The translations under genes and the position numbers were made by a program. DNA of 64,000 bases from Terricaulis sp. GTDB taxonomy: Bacteria; Pseudomonadota; Alphaproteobacteria; Caulobacterales; Aquidulcibacteraceae. Positions 6,250-14,393 of this stretch are shown here, piece after piece. The notes beneath the pieces were generated by a model. The model was not told the DNA's origin and did no database searches. It saw nothing but the letters and a program-made list of their open reading frames with translations. Each line of letters starts with the position of its first letter. Positions within the stretch are counted from its first letter, which is position 1. The stretch is from the NCBI GenBank assembly GCA_024707365.1, contig JANPZV010000001.1, forward strand, positions 124,001 to 188,000, given 5' to 3'.

Positions 6250-6308
6250 TCCTCCGCCGGTTCAAACCGCGACGGCGATGCTAGGCTGAGTCTTGCGATG
6301 CGCCGCCC

Positions 6309-6678
6309 TCACGCGCGGCAATCGATCGCCCAAATATCGTAGCTTGGGTGATCCAGCGCCGAAATGCCGGGGCTTGAGGCGAACAGCCAGCCCGACCAAA
6401 GCGCCTGGCGCTGGCTTTCCTCGCCGCGCGCGCGCGGCGGCGTACTCAAACACCTCCACGAAGATGCGCACCTCAGGCGTTTCTTCGGGCGCGCTCTTGG
6501 AGCAAGTGCGCGCAATCACTTCCAGCGAGCCGATGCGCGCGGGCCGGCCGATCGTCAGCGTATAATCGCTGGCGTGGCCCGTCACTTTGTCGAGCCCGCG
6601 CACCACCGCGCGCTGCGCATAAGCGGGCGCGGCGGCCGCGACGAACAAAGCAAACGCGCAAACAAGCGTGCGGATCAT
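6309..6678 (-). CDS. DUF2155 domain-containing periplasmic protein (frame broken near 6433)
   Basis: A signal peptide (about 1-21, ending A-Y-A-Q) is followed by the DUF2155 pattern 'LDKVTGHASDYTLTIG', 'LEVIARTCSKSAPEETPEV', and in another frame 'SGWLFASSPGISALDHPSY' then 'DIWAIDC'. The family normally ends this way, so the two frames are one gene. The break lies in the alternating GC run at 6428-6438. ATG 6676-6678 overlaps the mlaD stop, as in many alphaproteobacterial NDUFA12-mlaD-DUF2155 clusters. The family is widespread in this class and has no established function. The paired cysteines may form a disulfide. Confidence 0.85.
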
Positions 6679-7148
6679 GGCGCTGCGCTTTCCTCATTCG
6701 ATTGATCGCTCGATTGATTGCCTTGGGCGAAGCTGGCGAACAGCGTCAGAAGATCGATCGATCCGCGCGTGTTTGGAATTTCCGCGCCAGCGGCCAGCGC
6801 ATCAAAGCCCGCCGGCTCGATGCTCACATACGCCCCGCCCAGCAGCCCGTCGCTGGCGATGCTGGCGGTGCTTTCATCCGGCACCTGCACGCCCTGGTTC
6901 ACGTTCAGCACCAGCACCGCGTCAAACGTATTGGGATCAAGCGTCACCGAGCGCACAACCCCCACTTTTACGCCGGAAACACGCACGTCCGAACCGGGCG
7001 CAACGCCGTTCACGCGCTGAAACCGGCCGGTGAGTTCATAGCCGCCGCTCGCGCCGCTCTGCCCCGCTTGGGCGGCCGCGAACGCAAAAAAGCCGACAGC
7101 GACAAGCACCACCGCAGCGCCCAGCAGCGTTTCACCCCAGCGTTCCAT
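6675..7148 (-). CDS. mlaD: MlaD-type lipid transport (MCE) protein
   Basis: 157 residues. One N-terminal membrane anchor (about 7-27) is followed by a single MCE domain: 'GYELTGRFQRVNGVAPGSDV', then 'VRVSGVKVGVVRSVTLD' and 'GLLGGAYVSIEPAG'. This is the substrate-binding part of the Mla ABC system, which moves phospholipids between outer and inner membranes. The permease and ATPase genes are separate, at 50738 and 51514. The start overlaps the NDUFA12 stop (TGATG) and the stop overlaps the DUF2155 start. Confidence 0.92.
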   Translation of the reverse strand: MERWGETLLGAAVVLVAVGFFAFAAAQAGQSGASGGYELTGRFQRVNGVAPGSDVRVSGVKVGVVRSVTLDPNTFDAVLVLNVNQGVQVPDESTASIASDGLLGGAYVSIEPAGFDALAAGAEIPNTRGSIDLLTLFASFAQGNQSSDQSNEESAAP

Positions 7149-7546
7149 CACGCCTCGCCTTCAGGTTTCCAAGCTTCATAATCGCTCGCCGCGGCCGCGC
7201 GCGCGCCGCCGCGCGCCAGCGAGCCCTTGGGCCGATAGGCGAGGCGCGTGCCGGTGAGATTCGGAATGTGCGGCAGCTCCCATTTCTGCCGCTTGAGCGG
7301 CTTCACCGTGGGCGGCTCATCAACAATGTGGTGCATCCAAGGGTGCCAATCGGGCGGCACGCGCGAGGCTTCGGCGAGGCCCTTATAAATCACGTAGCGG
7401 CGCCGGCGGCCCTCAAGGCTGGGGCGGCGCTCCTCGTAATAGCGATTGCCTTGCTCGTCCTCGCCCACGAACGCCCCGCGACGGCCAATATCAAACAGCG
7501 CGCCAAGCGTGGCGCCGTTCCACCAGGTGAAGATGCGAGCGAGCAT
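7148..7546 (-). CDS. NADH:ubiquinone oxidoreductase subunit NDUFA12 family
   Basis: 132 residues. It matches the NDUFA12/B17.2 accessory subunit of respiratory complex I: 'FVGEDEQGNRYYEE' and 'RRYVIYKGLAEASRVPPDWHPWMH', then 'PPTVKPLKRQKWELPHIPN'. In alphaproteobacteria this subunit is bacterial-encoded away from the nuo operon and commonly precedes mlaD, as here. It is the first gene of the minus-strand cluster. Its upstream region is shared with the divergent NrdJ-like gene. Confidence 0.93.
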   Translation of the reverse strand: MLARIFTWWNGATLGALFDIGRRGAFVGEDEQGNRYYEERRPSLEGRRRRYVIYKGLAEASRVPPDWHPWMHHIVDEPPTVKPLKRQKWELPHIPNLTGTRLAYRPKGSLARGGARAAAASDYEAWKPEGEA

Positions 7547-7698: not shown

Positions 7699-7746
7699 CA
7701 ACCCTCTCGAAAGGGGTAAAGTGGCGCCTGCTTTGAGGAGGCGGGC

Positions 7747-10516
7747 ATGGCCCAGGATTTCGAGCACGACGCGCCGCAAGCGGCGGAAGCCCCCGGCATG
7801 GACCGAGGCCATGGCCGCCGCCGCGCTCGACGCAGGCGTCGCCATAGACACCGCCGCGGGCCCCAGCGTGGCCGCCGCCCTCATGCGCGCCGCGCACCGC
7901 ATCGGCGCCTGGGCCCAGGATGAGGCGCTCTCCCGCGAACTCGCCGCGCTTTTGGCCGAAGCCAAGATCATCCTCGATCCGCCCTTGATGCGGGCCGCGC
8001 TCGCCGCCGGGGCCGAATTGCCCTTCACCAGCGCCCTCATCGCCTGGCCGCGCGCCCCGCGTGAGGAATTGGCCGCGCTTTCGCGCGCGCAAACCCTGCT
8101 CGCCGCAGGCGCCAAGCTCGGCATTTCCGGCGCGCCCTCGCCCGCCGCGCTCGACGCGCTCGACGCCGCCGCGCGGCTGGCCGATCCCTCCGGCCGCGAA
8201 GGCCCCGCCATCTGCGTGCGCGCCGAGGCGGACGCAGCGCTCGATCTCACCAGCGATGAAGCCGCCCGCGCCCGCGCGAGTGAAGCCCTTGCCGCCGGCG
8301 CGCGCGCGCTCGATGCGGCGCTGGCTGAACTCGCCATCGAAGCGGTGCGCAACGGGCTCAGCACCGAACATGGCGCGGTGCGCCGCAAAGCCGCCGCCGC
8401 GCGCCTCGTCGGCGCGCCCGATGCGGATATTCTCGCCGCGCTCTCCGGCGCCGTCGCCCATGGCGCCTACAGCGCAGCGCTCGACGCCGGCGCAAGCGCG
8501 CAGCGCACCCGCCTTGTGATCGCAGCCCCAGAGCCAAGCGCGCACGCGCTCACCGGCTTTGCGCCCGGCGCGATCGACCCCACCGGCGCATTCGCCAGCA
8601 TCGAAGAAGCAGACACAATCGGCGCCAGCATCGCCGCCCCGCGCTTCTTCGCCGCCAGCGGCTTTGACTCAAACGCCTTCGCGCACGCCATCCGCACGCT
8701 GGTGCGCGCGCTCGACGCCGCCCACGGCCGCCACGGCGGCGCGCGCCGCCCCATCCTGATCCGCATCGAAGGGCTCGCAGCCCTCATCATGCGCGCAGGC
8801 TTTGCCTATGACAGCCAAGCGGCGCGCAGCCTCGCCGCAGGCCTCGCCGCCCTCGCGCACGCCGCCGCCATCAGCGAAAGCGCCGATCTCGCCGCCGCCA
8901 AAGGCGCCTACCCCGAATGGGCCCGCCATCGCCGCGCCGAAGAAAGCGCCGTCAAAGCCGCGCGCGAAGCGGCAAGCGCCTTCACAGAAGGCCCCGGCGC
9001 ACACGCGCTCGCCATCTATCGCGCGCTGCCTTCGGGCAAGGGCGCGAGCTTGCGCGTGTCGCCCGCCATCGCTTTTGCGGCGGACGAAGCCTCCGCCCGC
9101 CGCGCCGGCTATGACGCGCCCGGCCTTGCGCCCACCCGCGCGCTCACCAGCTTCGGCTTGCGTGACGATGGCGGCTTTGGCCGTCTGCTCAGCGCCGACG
9201 CCCGCGCCGCGCTCACCGCGCTCGGCTATGAGGATGACGCGATCGAAGCGCTCGCGCGCCACGCCGAAGGCCGCCGCACGCTGAAGAACGCGCCCGGCGT
9301 CAATCTTGAGCGGCTGGAAAAGCTCGGCCTTTCTGAAACCACGCTCGAAGCCATTGAAGAAGCCGCCGCCGATGCGTTCAATCTGCGCGCCGCCGTGCAT
9401 CCGCTCGTCATCGGCGAGGATGTCTGCGCCAGCGTGCTGAAGCTGCCGGCTGACGTAGCCGCCGGCAAACGCGGCGATCTCTTGATGACGCTGGGCTTCA
9501 CGCCCGAGGATATCGCCGCCGCCGAAGCCTTCTGCATGGGCGCGGGCCATCTTGACGGCGCGCCGGGGCTCGACCCTGCGCACGCCGATGTGTTCGCGCG
9601 CGGCGCTGCCGCCGAAGCGCACATCGCCATGGCCAAGGCGATCAAGCCGTTTGCGCGCACCGCGCTTGATCTTGCCATCACCGATCTCGCCGCCCGCCCC
9701 GCGCTGCAACAGGCGGCCAAGGAAGCGGGCGTCAGCCTGCTGCGCCTCCGCGCCGAGGCCCCGCCGATCACGCTCACGCTCGGCGATATCGATGATGAGG
9801 AAGAGCCCGCAGCGCCCGCCCCGCGCGCTGCTGCGCCAGCAATCGCGCCCGCGCCGAGCGAGCCGCAAGGGCGCCGCCGCCTGCCCGAGCGCCGCAAGGG
9901 CTATATCCAAAAATCCGTTGTCGGCGGGCACAAAGTCTATCTGCACACCGGCGAATATGATGACGGCGAGCTCGGCGAAATCTTCATCGATCTGCACAAG
10001 GAAAGCGCCGCCTTCCGCTCGCTGATGAACAATTTCGCCATCTCGATTTCCATCGGCCTGCAATATGGCGTGCCGCTGGAAGAATACGTGGACGCCTTCC
10101 TGTTCACGCGCTTTGAGCCCGCGGGCGAGGTGAAGGGCAACGAAACCATTCGCCACGCCACCTCGATCCTCGATTACATCTTCCGCGAACTTGCCGTGAG
10201 CTATCTTGGCCGCACCGACCTTGCGCAAGTCGATCCGTTCGACGCGCGCGGCGATGGCCTCTCCAAGCGCGCCACCGACGCCGAAAGCGCCGCGCGCCTC
10301 ATCTCACGGGGCTTTGCCCGCACCGCGCCGGACAATCTCGTCATGCTGCGCCCGCGCGCCATCGTCGAAAACATCCGCGAAACCCGCGAAGCCAAAATCG
10401 CGCCCGCCGCTGCCGGCTATCGCGCGGATCCATGTGACGCCTGCGGGCATTTCACCGTGGAGCAAAACGGCGTTTGCGCCGCGTGCGGCGCGAAGGGTGA
10501 GGCGAGCGGGGGCTAA
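7747..10516 (+). CDS. NrdJ-like (class II ribonucleotide reductase-derived) protein lacking catalytic residues; frame broken near 7794
   Basis: About 920 residues. The start is ATG 7747, with GAGGAG 7-12 bp upstream. The first 16 codons are in another frame, joined at the C5 run at 7791-7795. The C-terminal part is clearly NrdJ-like: '[18 protein letters not shown]', '[19 protein letters not shown]', '[19 protein letters not shown]', '[19 protein letters not shown]' (TSCPD domain), then a zinc-ribbon-like '[19 protein letters not shown]'. The middle keeps NrdJ-like helix repeats ('[19 protein letters not shown]', 'TLKNAPGVN', '[17 protein letters not shown]', '[15 protein letters not shown]') and, before them, '[19 protein letters not shown]'. 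The sites where NrdJ carries N-P-C-S-E, C-N-L-A-S and C-A-N-P-C-G are replaced by alanine-rich sequence, and the final redox cysteine pair is missing. It is shorter than usual NrdJ (about 1200). Alignments are from memory. It is probably a pseudoenzyme. Confidence 0.8.
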
Positions 10517-12065: not shown

Positions 12066-12593
12066 GTGCTGACACAATTGCGCCCCGCTTTGTTCGCGCT
12101 CGCCCTGGCCGCCGGGGTCTGGGCCGGGGTGGCCTCGGCCCAATGGCAGAGCGCCGAAGCGGTGCGGCTCGATCCCGGCTTTGGCGGCGTCTGCGAAGGC
12201 TGCGATCTGTCGGGCCGCATCCTCACCGGGGCGCGGATGCACCGCTCGGTGTTCACCCGCGCCAATTTCGCCAACGCCGTGCTCACCCGCGCGGACGCAA
12301 CCGGGGCGGCGTTTGAAGGGGCCGATTTTTCCGGCGCCGAGCTTAGCCGCGTCCGCTTTGACGGCGCCGATTGCAGCGGCGCGGATTTCTCCGGCGCGGT
12401 GCTCAGCCGCGCCTCCGCGCGCGGGGCCGATTTCAGCCGCGCCGATTTCACCCGCGCGGAGCTCGATCACGTCGATTTCTCCGGCGCCGATCTGCGCGGC
12501 GCGCGCGGGCTCACCCAAGCGCAGCTGAGCCGCGCCTGCGGCGATCGCGCCACCCGCCTGCCGCGCGGGCTGCGGCTGGCGAATTGCGGCTAG
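12066..12593 (+). CDS. secreted pentapeptide-repeat protein
   Basis: 175 residues from a GTG start. A signal peptide (about 1-26, ending V-A-S-A-Q) is followed by 'CEGCDLSG' and about 14 consecutive A(D/N)LXX-type pentapeptides ('[15 protein letters not shown]', '[20 protein letters not shown]'), which fold as a right-handed quadrilateral beta-helix. Cysteines sit near both ends (C43, C46; 'CGDR', 'NCG'), which suggests a disulfide-stabilised periplasmic protein. Its stop TAG shares bases with the convergent aspS stop. Export argues against a DNA-gyrase-mimic role. Confidence 0.8.
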
Positions 12594-14393
12594 CCCTTCG
12601 GCGGCTCGACCACGCGGATGTGCAGCTCTTTGAGCTGTTTGGGCGTGACTTCGCCGGGCGCGTTCATCATCAGATCCTGCGCCTGCTGATTGAACGGAAA
12701 GACGATCACCTCGCGGATGTTGTCCACGCCCGCCAGCAGCATGACGATGCGGTCCACGCCCGGCGCAGAGCCCCCGTGCGGGGGCGCGCCGAAGCGGAAG
12801 GCGTTCAGCATGCCGCCGAACTTCTCTTCCACCACGCTCTGCGGATAGCCGGCGAGATCGAACGCTTTGATCATGATCTCGGGCTTGTGGTTGCGGATCG
12901 CGCCGGAGGAAAGCTCAACGCCGTTGCAGACGATGTCGTATTGAAACGCGGTGATGGCTTCGATCGTCTCACGATCGGCCGGATCGAGCTTGAGGAATTC
13001 CTCATGATCGAAATTCGGCATCGAGAACGGATTGTGCGAGAAATCGATTTTCTTCTCTTCCTCGCTCCACTCATACATCGGGAAATCGACGATCCAGCAG
13101 AACGCGAACTGATCCTTGTCGGCAAGGTTCAGCTCATCGGCCACTTTGTTGCGCGCAAGGCCGGCGAATTTGTAAAACACCTTCGGATCGCCCGCGACGA
13201 AGAAGGCCGCATCGCCCACCTTGAGCCCCAGCTGATCGCGGATCGCATTGGCTTTCTCAGGCCCGATATTCTTCGCAATCGGCCCCGCCCCGCCCTCTTC
13301 GCCATCACGCCAGAAGATGTAGCCAAGCCCCGGCTGGCCTTCGCTTTGCGCCCACGAATTCATCTTGTCGCAGAACGCGCGGCTGCCCCCGCTCGGCGCC
13401 GGCACGGCCCACACCGCATTGCCGGCTTTATCGAGGATCTTGGCGAACAAGCCAAAGCCGCCGCCGCGGAAGTGTTCGCTCACATCGGCAAGCACCAGCG
13501 GATTGCGCAGATCGGGCTTATCGCTGCCGTATTTGGCGATCGATTCCGCATAAGGAATGCGCGGAAACGCGCCGGCTTTGGTCACGCGCTTGCCGTTGGC
13601 GAATTCCTCGAACACGCCCGCCAGCACCGGCTCGATCGCCTGGAACACATCCTCCTGCGTGACGAAGCTCATCTCGAAATCGAGTTGGTAGAACTCACCG
13701 GGGCTGCGATCGGCGCGCGCGTCCTCATCGCGGAAGCACGGCGCGATCTGGAAGTATTTGTCGAACCCGGCCACCATCAAGAGCTGCTTGAATTGCTGCG
13801 GCGCCCTGCGGCAGCGCGTAGAACTTGCCGGGATGCATGCGCGAGGGCACCAGGAAATCGCGCGCGCCTTCGGGCGAGGAGGCCGTCAGGATCGGCGTCT
13901 GAAACTCGGTGAAGCCCTGGTCGATCATCCGCCGCCGCAAGCTGGCGATCACTTGGCTGCGCAACAGGATCGAGCGGTGCAGCTTCTCGCGCCTGAGATC
14001 GAGGAAGCGATATTTGAGCCGGATGTCCTCTGGATAATCCGGCTCGCCAAACACCGGCAGCGGCAGCTCCTCGGCCGCGCCCAGCACCTCGGCGCTACTC
14101 ACGCGCACCTCGATCTCGCCCGTCGCCAGTTCCGGGTTCACCGTCTCGGCCGAGCGGGCGATCACCTTGCCGTCCACCCGCACCACGCTCTCGGCGCGCA
14201 GCCGCTCAAACAGCGGAAACGCGGCCGAGCCCGGATTGGCCACCAATTGCGTCACGCCATGATGATCGCGCAGGTCGATAAACAGCACCCCGCCGAGGTC
14301 GCGCTTTCTGTGCACCCAGCCGGAGAGCCGCACGTCCTGGCCCGCGTCGGCAGGCCGGAGGGCGGCGCAAGTGTGGGTACGATATGCGTGCAT
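12590..14393 (-). CDS. aspS: aspartyl-tRNA synthetase (bacterial type; frame broken near 13803)
   Basis: About 600 residues when both frames are joined. From ATG 14393 ('[19 protein letters not shown]') there is the OB-fold anticodon-binding domain ('[20 protein letters not shown]'), then class II motif 1 and '[20 protein letters not shown]'. After the break come motif 2 ('[18 protein letters not shown]'), the bacterial GAD insertion domain and motif 3 ('[14 protein letters not shown]'). The break is one extra G in the GGG at about 13802-13805, just after 'FYALPQ'. An essential gene cannot be disrupted this way, so a sequence error is likely. It may be a non-discriminating enzyme; this cannot be decided here. 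Confidence 0.95.

Follow-up and report, generated by a model that had tools for sequence, protein, structure and literature searches.

What is left of a class II ribonucleotide reductase (RNR) when the residues of its radical chemistry are gone, and why would such a protein be kept? The question is raised by a gene in the 64,000-nucleotide stretch of Terricaulis sp. DNA analysed here (hereafter the window), whose product is related to NrdJ from end to end. An earlier reading of the letters alone, to which we refer as the original prediction, had described a selected, full-length pseudoenzyme that might pair with, store or inhibit the real NrdJ of the cell, and conservation, substitution rates and the predicted fold uphold the first half of that description. 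The reading that we favour, with a probability of roughly 0.55, is that of an NrdJ relative which occupies NrdJ's ancestral place, is catalytically dead and survives as a non-catalytic scaffold in the service of its C-terminal domain (CRD, a TSCPD core and a zinc ribbon), whose job we predict to be effector-driven self-assembly or the binding of a partner. The gene and its parts are as follows.

7747..10516, + strand: NrdJ-derived pseudoenzyme gene; long open frame at 7721-10516 (931 codons), likely start ATG at 7747-7749
7735..7741, + strand: Shine-Dalgarno sequence GAGGAGG, read from the sequence, ahead of the ATG at 7747
7790..7794, + strand: C-run at which the frame of the ATG and the 931-codon frame part; a probable assembly indel, intact in relatives
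8267..8449, + strand: conserved helical segment (residues ~183-243) whose NrdJ counterpart reads DPxxNxALxRAxxAARRxGxPDxxIxxAL
8624..8944, + strand: RNR barrel remnant (PF02867), residues 302-408, from a Pfam match of 35.5 bits and alignment to NrdJ
9221..9598, + strand: region of helix repeats that follows the barrel, residues ~501-626, from alignment with NrdJ
9872..10513, + strand: CRD, residues 718-931, from profile matches and alignment
9923..10195, + strand: TSCPD domain (PF12637, Pfam), residues 735-825
10433..10486, + strand: zinc-ribbon cysteines 905, 908, 919 and 922, recognised by their spacing; the two redox cysteines of NrdJ are absent

An NrdJ relative without the known catalytic residues

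Homology to alphaproteobacterial NrdJ (NF005736/PRK07562; R. sphaeroides structures 7b9p and 7b9q) extends over the whole protein (hhalign probability 100, E 6e-181, 866 columns), and the likeness takes in the locus, a nearly identical CRD core and the fold, which structure prediction gives as that of an RNR alpha subunit with the barrel at high confidence. Unlike NrdJ, the protein lacks the thiyl-radical cysteine, the glutamate and the redox cysteines, has ~270 residues fewer than L058, one of the order's catalytic NrdJ, and reaches 384 bits against NF005736 (NCBIfam), whose equivalog cut-off is 1737; the class II RNR models all stay far below their cut-offs. L058, the sole member with bits shown, clears the NF005736 cut-off narrowly at 1747.5. 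PF12637 matches at 35.2 bits, above its cut-off of 22.8, which places the protein in the TSCPD/CRD family; with the NF005736 score and the PF02867 match, this agrees with the NrdJ-like C-terminal part and the barrel traces noticed at the outset.

The losses are common to a large group of proteins. In an alignment of 46 pseudoenzymes and 19 NrdJ of the order, the cysteine and the glutamate of NPCSE, the cysteine of HACFI and that of CNLAS are each found in none of the 46, while all four are present in every NrdJ (one of the 19 has S instead of N in NPCSE), and neither NPCxE nor CNL[AG]S occurs in any of the 322 proteins listed by three homologue searches. The last 60 residues hold four cysteines in all 46 pseudoenzymes as against six in all 19 NrdJ; the C-terminal redox pair is absent and the remaining four have zinc-ribbon spacing, the roles of the tail cysteines being assigned from section 9 of PMC5704485. 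The alignment therefore finds the catalytic cysteine, the glutamate and the redox cysteines in place in none of the 46, as had been claimed. Where the original prediction saw only alanine-rich sequence at the tail it needs correction: the terminal redox cysteines are gone but C905, C908, C919 and C922 stay.

What has been retained lies mostly at the C-terminal end. The only cysteines invariant among 27 diverse members are the four of zinc type (C882, C885, C896 and C899 in the protein read from 7790), and nearly all invariant residues fall within the CRD. Across families the CRD core retains 93-98% of the NrdJ-invariant residues and the helix-repeat region 37-58%; few of the invariant core residues of the barrel remain, and the first redox-cysteine region and the finger-loop cysteine region of NrdJ have no aligned counterpart. 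It is conceivable that the protein is still a ribonucleotide reductase whose catalytic residues have been displaced, as full-length homology and the predicted RNR fold would allow and as some sources imply by calling members ribonucleotide reductase. With only the four zinc-type cysteines invariant among diverse members, both redox systems lost and NrdAB present in the genome, we consider this very improbable.

The conserved helical segment (window 8267-8449) has, in other members and in the same stretch of NrdJ, a weak resemblance to the N-terminal domain of TACO1/YebC (YebC_N). At E<=0.1 this match is obtained for 13 of 18 NrdJ and 11 of 27 pseudoenzymes, the window's own protein not being among them.

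Conservation, selection and the reading frame

The protein has at least 173 homologues at E<=1e-3, from 7987 scored candidates. Among the best 120 of these, 117 have 914-950 amino acids (aa), P0106, P0114 and P0116 being shorter, and identity is 63-79% with the exception of P0106, a partial protein at 98%. The named sources are, among the matches listed, chiefly Hyphomonadaceae, Terricaulis, Vitreimonas, Viadribacter and Caulobacteraceae; a single homologue from a metagenome, P0051, carries the label Candidatus Binatia. On the strength of these names we take the order to be Caulobacterales. When a Caulobacteraceae member serves as query at least 208 proteins are found, and at least 269 with a Caulobacter segnis member. 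Database names of these homologues include "ribonucleotide reductase", "ribonucleotide reductase-related protein" and "TSCPD domain-containing protein".

Ratios of nonsynonymous to synonymous substitution rates (dN/dS, Nei-Gojobori) were calculated over the 210 pairs of 21 loci of the window's genus. For the whole gene they range from 0.09 to 0.39 (median 0.24); pairing the window's gene with each of its six nearest relatives gives 0.24 to 0.33. Regional ratios, taken from the 12 closest pairs (the window's gene is in none of them), are 0.09-0.21 for the whole, 0.07-0.24 for the N-terminal part, 0.08-0.26 for the barrel remnant, 0.07-0.27 for the helix region and 0.03-0.16 for the CRD, values that are rough as whole-gene dS in these pairs is high (0.57-1.25). 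Orthologues are abundant, then, and their dN/dS stays away from 1.

The ATG at 7747 is out of frame with the 931-codon frame and the two meet at the C-run 7790-7794, which is the homopolymer shift that had been noticed; the good Shine-Dalgarno attributed to the gene is the GAGGAGG at 7735-7741. The break is probably an assembly indel, because relatives such as P0001 are uninterrupted across this stretch and because the class I NrdA of the same genome (G000, the genome of the window, 89.7% complete, the scope of all that is said below of its gene content) is also broken, into two overlapping frames of 406 and 362 aa (G000:C1:133531-134951, L066). The split NrdA frames are a sign of indel errors in this assembly. 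A decaying pseudogene, which the frame break might suggest, is hardly credible in view of dN/dS both across the genus and for the window's own gene, of the at least 173 homologues of near-constant length and of the second broken gene, which indicates assembly error; on this point the original prediction had judged correctly.

The same ratios lend themselves to a different explanation, in which the barrel acquired a new role, either catalytic or in the binding of a ligand such as cobalamin or a nucleotide, while the CRD serves only as its structural tail. The N-terminal part and the barrel remnant are under purifying selection (0.07-0.26 in the 12 pairs) and the barrel fold is predicted at high confidence, yet few of the NrdJ-invariant core residues are left, two cysteine regions are unaligned, invariant residues lie almost only in the CRD, and forms consisting of the CRD alone exist. 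We therefore hold a new role of the barrel to be distinctly unlikely.

The locus and the RNR complement

The neighbours of the gene that bear on its descent are these.

7148..7546, - strand: NDUFA12 (PF05071), divergent neighbour, common to catalytic NrdJ and CRD-only loci
12066..12593, + strand: pentapeptide-repeat gene (PF00805), with relatives downstream of pseudoenzyme and NrdJ loci
12590..13780, - strand: class II tRNA synthetase, part of AspS (PF00152 and PF02938), downstream edge of the conserved cluster

Orthologues beside NDUFA12, which the original prediction had proposed to look for, are the rule: among loci with enough flank, NDUFA12 lies divergently upstream at 40 of 43 pseudoenzyme loci and at 11 of 19 NrdJ loci. 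Downstream, 29 of 46 pseudoenzyme and 17 of 20 NrdJ loci have a pentapeptide gene on the same strand. Outside the order, NDUFA12 is divergent upstream at 16 of the 20 NrdJ loci of the class that were looked at, out of 94 genomes with a long frame. By this shared neighbourhood the pseudoenzyme is the positional orthologue of NrdJ and not an additional copy. An old cluster surrounds nrdJ or the pseudoenzyme gene in the order, with NDUFA12, MlaD and DUF2155 upstream (window 6265-7546) and the pentapeptide gene and AspS downstream (12066-13780).

The RNR genes found in G000 are those of a class I enzyme, NrdA on C1 and NrdB on C6, so that another RNR does accompany the pseudoenzyme; a catalytic NrdJ was not found. 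To survey the order we searched 219 genomes with a CRD profile and a catalytic NrdJ query. The profile matches 209 genomes and the query 48, all within the 209, at E<=3.7e-188 and at least 61% identity; in ten further genomes the best match to the query (E 7e-25 to 6e-22, 33-35% identity, frames of 582-773 aa) is taken as class I NrdA. Catalysis and the TSCPD core occur together in 47 genomes, a CRD match without catalytic NrdJ in 161 (part of them read by sequence, the remainder classed by the CRD and NrdJ searches alone), catalysis with the CRD tail only in one (G362), and neither form in ten (G051, G055, G059, G278, G287, G295 and G339 of genus g18; G038, G217 and G236 of genus g10). No strong catalytic match was obtained in families f1-f3, all 37 genomes of f5 have one, and f4 is mixed.

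These counts bear on the idea that the protein serves a catalytic NrdJ in trans as partner, store or inhibitor, for which the separately encoded CRD of P. aeruginosa, NrdJb acting with NrdJa, offers a precedent in the relevant part of PMC5704485. As a catalytic NrdJ was found neither in G000 nor in the 161 genomes with a CRD match, and as the gene stands in NrdJ's own place, the probability of such a role is next to nil, and this part of the original prediction is not supported. Its further suggestions, allosteric tuning (here of class I RNR) and nucleotide sensing, are possible.

NrdB is present in 58 of 61 relatives, including every one of the 48 with completeness of 90% or more and contamination of 5% or less; it is present also alongside catalytic NrdJ and where the pseudoenzyme is absent (e.g. 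G038, G051, G055 and G059). The main rival to our reading starts from NrdAB and holds the protein to be its nucleotide-responsive regulator, the dead RNR alpha fold binding NrdA or deoxyribonucleoside triphosphates (dNTPs) and switching NrdAB through CRD assembly. NrdAB is the only RNR found in G000; no ATP-cone was detected at E<=0.01 in its NrdA frames or NrdB, the sole match in the genome sitting in a 140-aa open frame of NrdR size; the alpha fold is predicted to be intact, and nucleotide-induced oligomers of another NrdJ depend on the CRD (see Discussion). On the other hand, CRD-only proteins without an RNR fold persist in G067 and G142, NrdB occurs without the gene and together with catalytic NrdJ, and no NrdR box stands out upstream: a score of at least 13/16 is reached in one of 46 pseudoenzyme and one of 18 NrdJ loci, and the mean best scores of 10.1 and 10.2 compare with 9.3 and 9.8 in shuffles. 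We regard such a regulator as possible but unlikely.

Separation of the TSCPD core from catalysis

Our reading, in which the CRD has work of its own, gains from genomes that keep it apart from the enzyme. The CRD is matched in 100 of 153 genomes of the class (G000 among them); the frame that holds the match has 1141-1364 aa in 94, a length like that of NrdJ, 939 aa in the window and 278-667 aa in five. In these five no catalytic NrdJ was found, the only matches (E 4e-14 to 3e-12) being taken as class I NrdA; all have NrdB and an adjoining NDUFA12 match on the opposite strand. In G067 (1.4 Mb) and G142 (1.2 Mb) the TSCPD protein alone remains, in open frames of 282 and 278 aa. Counted over the 86 core residues invariant in 14 NrdJ (five of the 19 were dropped from the count), 79 are kept in the window, 72 in G067 and 67 in G142. 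The opposite loss is seen in G362 (L144:5508-8213), whose catalytic NrdJ has a six-cysteine tail and no TSCPD match. Because losses run both ways, core without catalysis and catalysis without core, we infer that TSCPD has a function apart from catalysis.

Free TSCPD/CRD proteins of ~280 aa adjoin NDUFA12 in two small alphaproteobacterial genomes (L139:4232-5077 and L140:3891-4724).

The CRD-core tree, built on 176 columns with a single outgroup row remaining, requires four state changes for the pseudoenzymes, with a single clade not rejected (approximately unbiased test, p 0.42). When the helix region is added to the CRD, the 46 pseudoenzymes fall on one side with support 100/100, a grouping that could also stem from shared loss of constraint. 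Additional losses may have occurred independently beyond the order, to judge by the short forms there.

Discussion

We propose that dNTP synthesis was handed to NrdAB, and that the barrel would thereby have become free to lose catalysis while another function of the CRD was still required. RNR alpha chains without catalysis that are kept for other work are also represented by the inactive R1 homologues of betaherpesviruses, which are viral and derived from class I; to our knowledge they carry no CRD.

What the CRD might do is suggested by NrdJd of S. nassauensis, in which, according to the sections of PMC5704485 on this protein, the CRD carries electron transfer and the tetramers and hexamers seen with dATP or dGTP form only when it is present. 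That domain, like ours, is C-terminal and ends in a cysteine zinc site, which in the alphaproteobacterial CRD is preceded by a TSCPD-type core. Unlike in the NrdJd domain, the pseudoenzyme tail has four cysteines, not six; as it lacks the redox pair, it is not expected to transfer electrons by that route, and of the two roles known from NrdJd it would be assembly or partner binding that was kept. P. aeruginosa NrdJb, of the split NrdJa+b treated in the same source, resembles our protein in that the CRD and an active catalytic chain are not encoded together, and differs from it in that no NrdJa partner was found in G000 and a dead barrel is still attached to the CRD.

Several points weigh against this reading. 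The NrdJd CRD given in trans did not restore activity with tris(2-carboxyethyl)phosphine (TCEP), as the same part of PMC5704485 reports, and the oligomerisation data, coming from another subclass, apply here by analogy. No partner protein is known for the CRD, and a search by sequence found no solved CRD structure. As the N-terminal part and the barrel are also under purifying selection, the CRD may not be the sole selected part. The shorter chains of G081, G191 and G143 keep only 45, 46 and 43 of the 86 invariant core residues, and the zinc ribbon is missing in these three and in G142. One CRD match was found in 203 of the 209 genomes and two in the other six (G221, G255, G314, G319, G340 and G377), perhaps fragments of one domain among the matches listed. 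The ten genomes with neither form indicate that the gene is dispensable in some lineages, and the number of pseudoenzyme origins differs by tree, the CRD core splitting what the longer tree joins.

A broader proposal, to which we give even odds, treats the TSCPD core of alphaproteobacterial NrdJ as a module independent of RNR, with an ancient function of its own and with class II RNR as one of its carriers. Once NrdAB takes over dNTP synthesis, the enzyme would be dismantled around the module, to the point of freeing the CRD in reduced genomes, and the module would stay beside NDUFA12.

The C. crescentus gene CCNA_01966 is listed as B12-dependent RNR or NrdJ in the relevant entries of PMC5869019 and PMC6538847. 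By family membership its product is likely a pseudoenzyme, since no genome of family f3 in our sample, taken as Caulobacteraceae from homologue names, has a strong catalytic NrdJ match, since neither NPCxE nor CNL[AG]S occurs in the C. segnis homologues P0155 and P0233, which have four tail cysteines, and since the C. vibrioides control genome matches NF005736 below its cut-off, a weak argument as catalytic L058 itself is only narrowly above it.

In Caulobacter's order, a radical enzyme of DNA synthesis seems to have become a non-enzyme under selection in 161 of the 219 genomes sampled, while names in databases and a metabolic scheme in print take members for B12-dependent reductase. The natural split, with the TSCPD core found without catalysis and catalysis without the core, allows the job of this widespread RNR domain to be tested in a genetic model organism.
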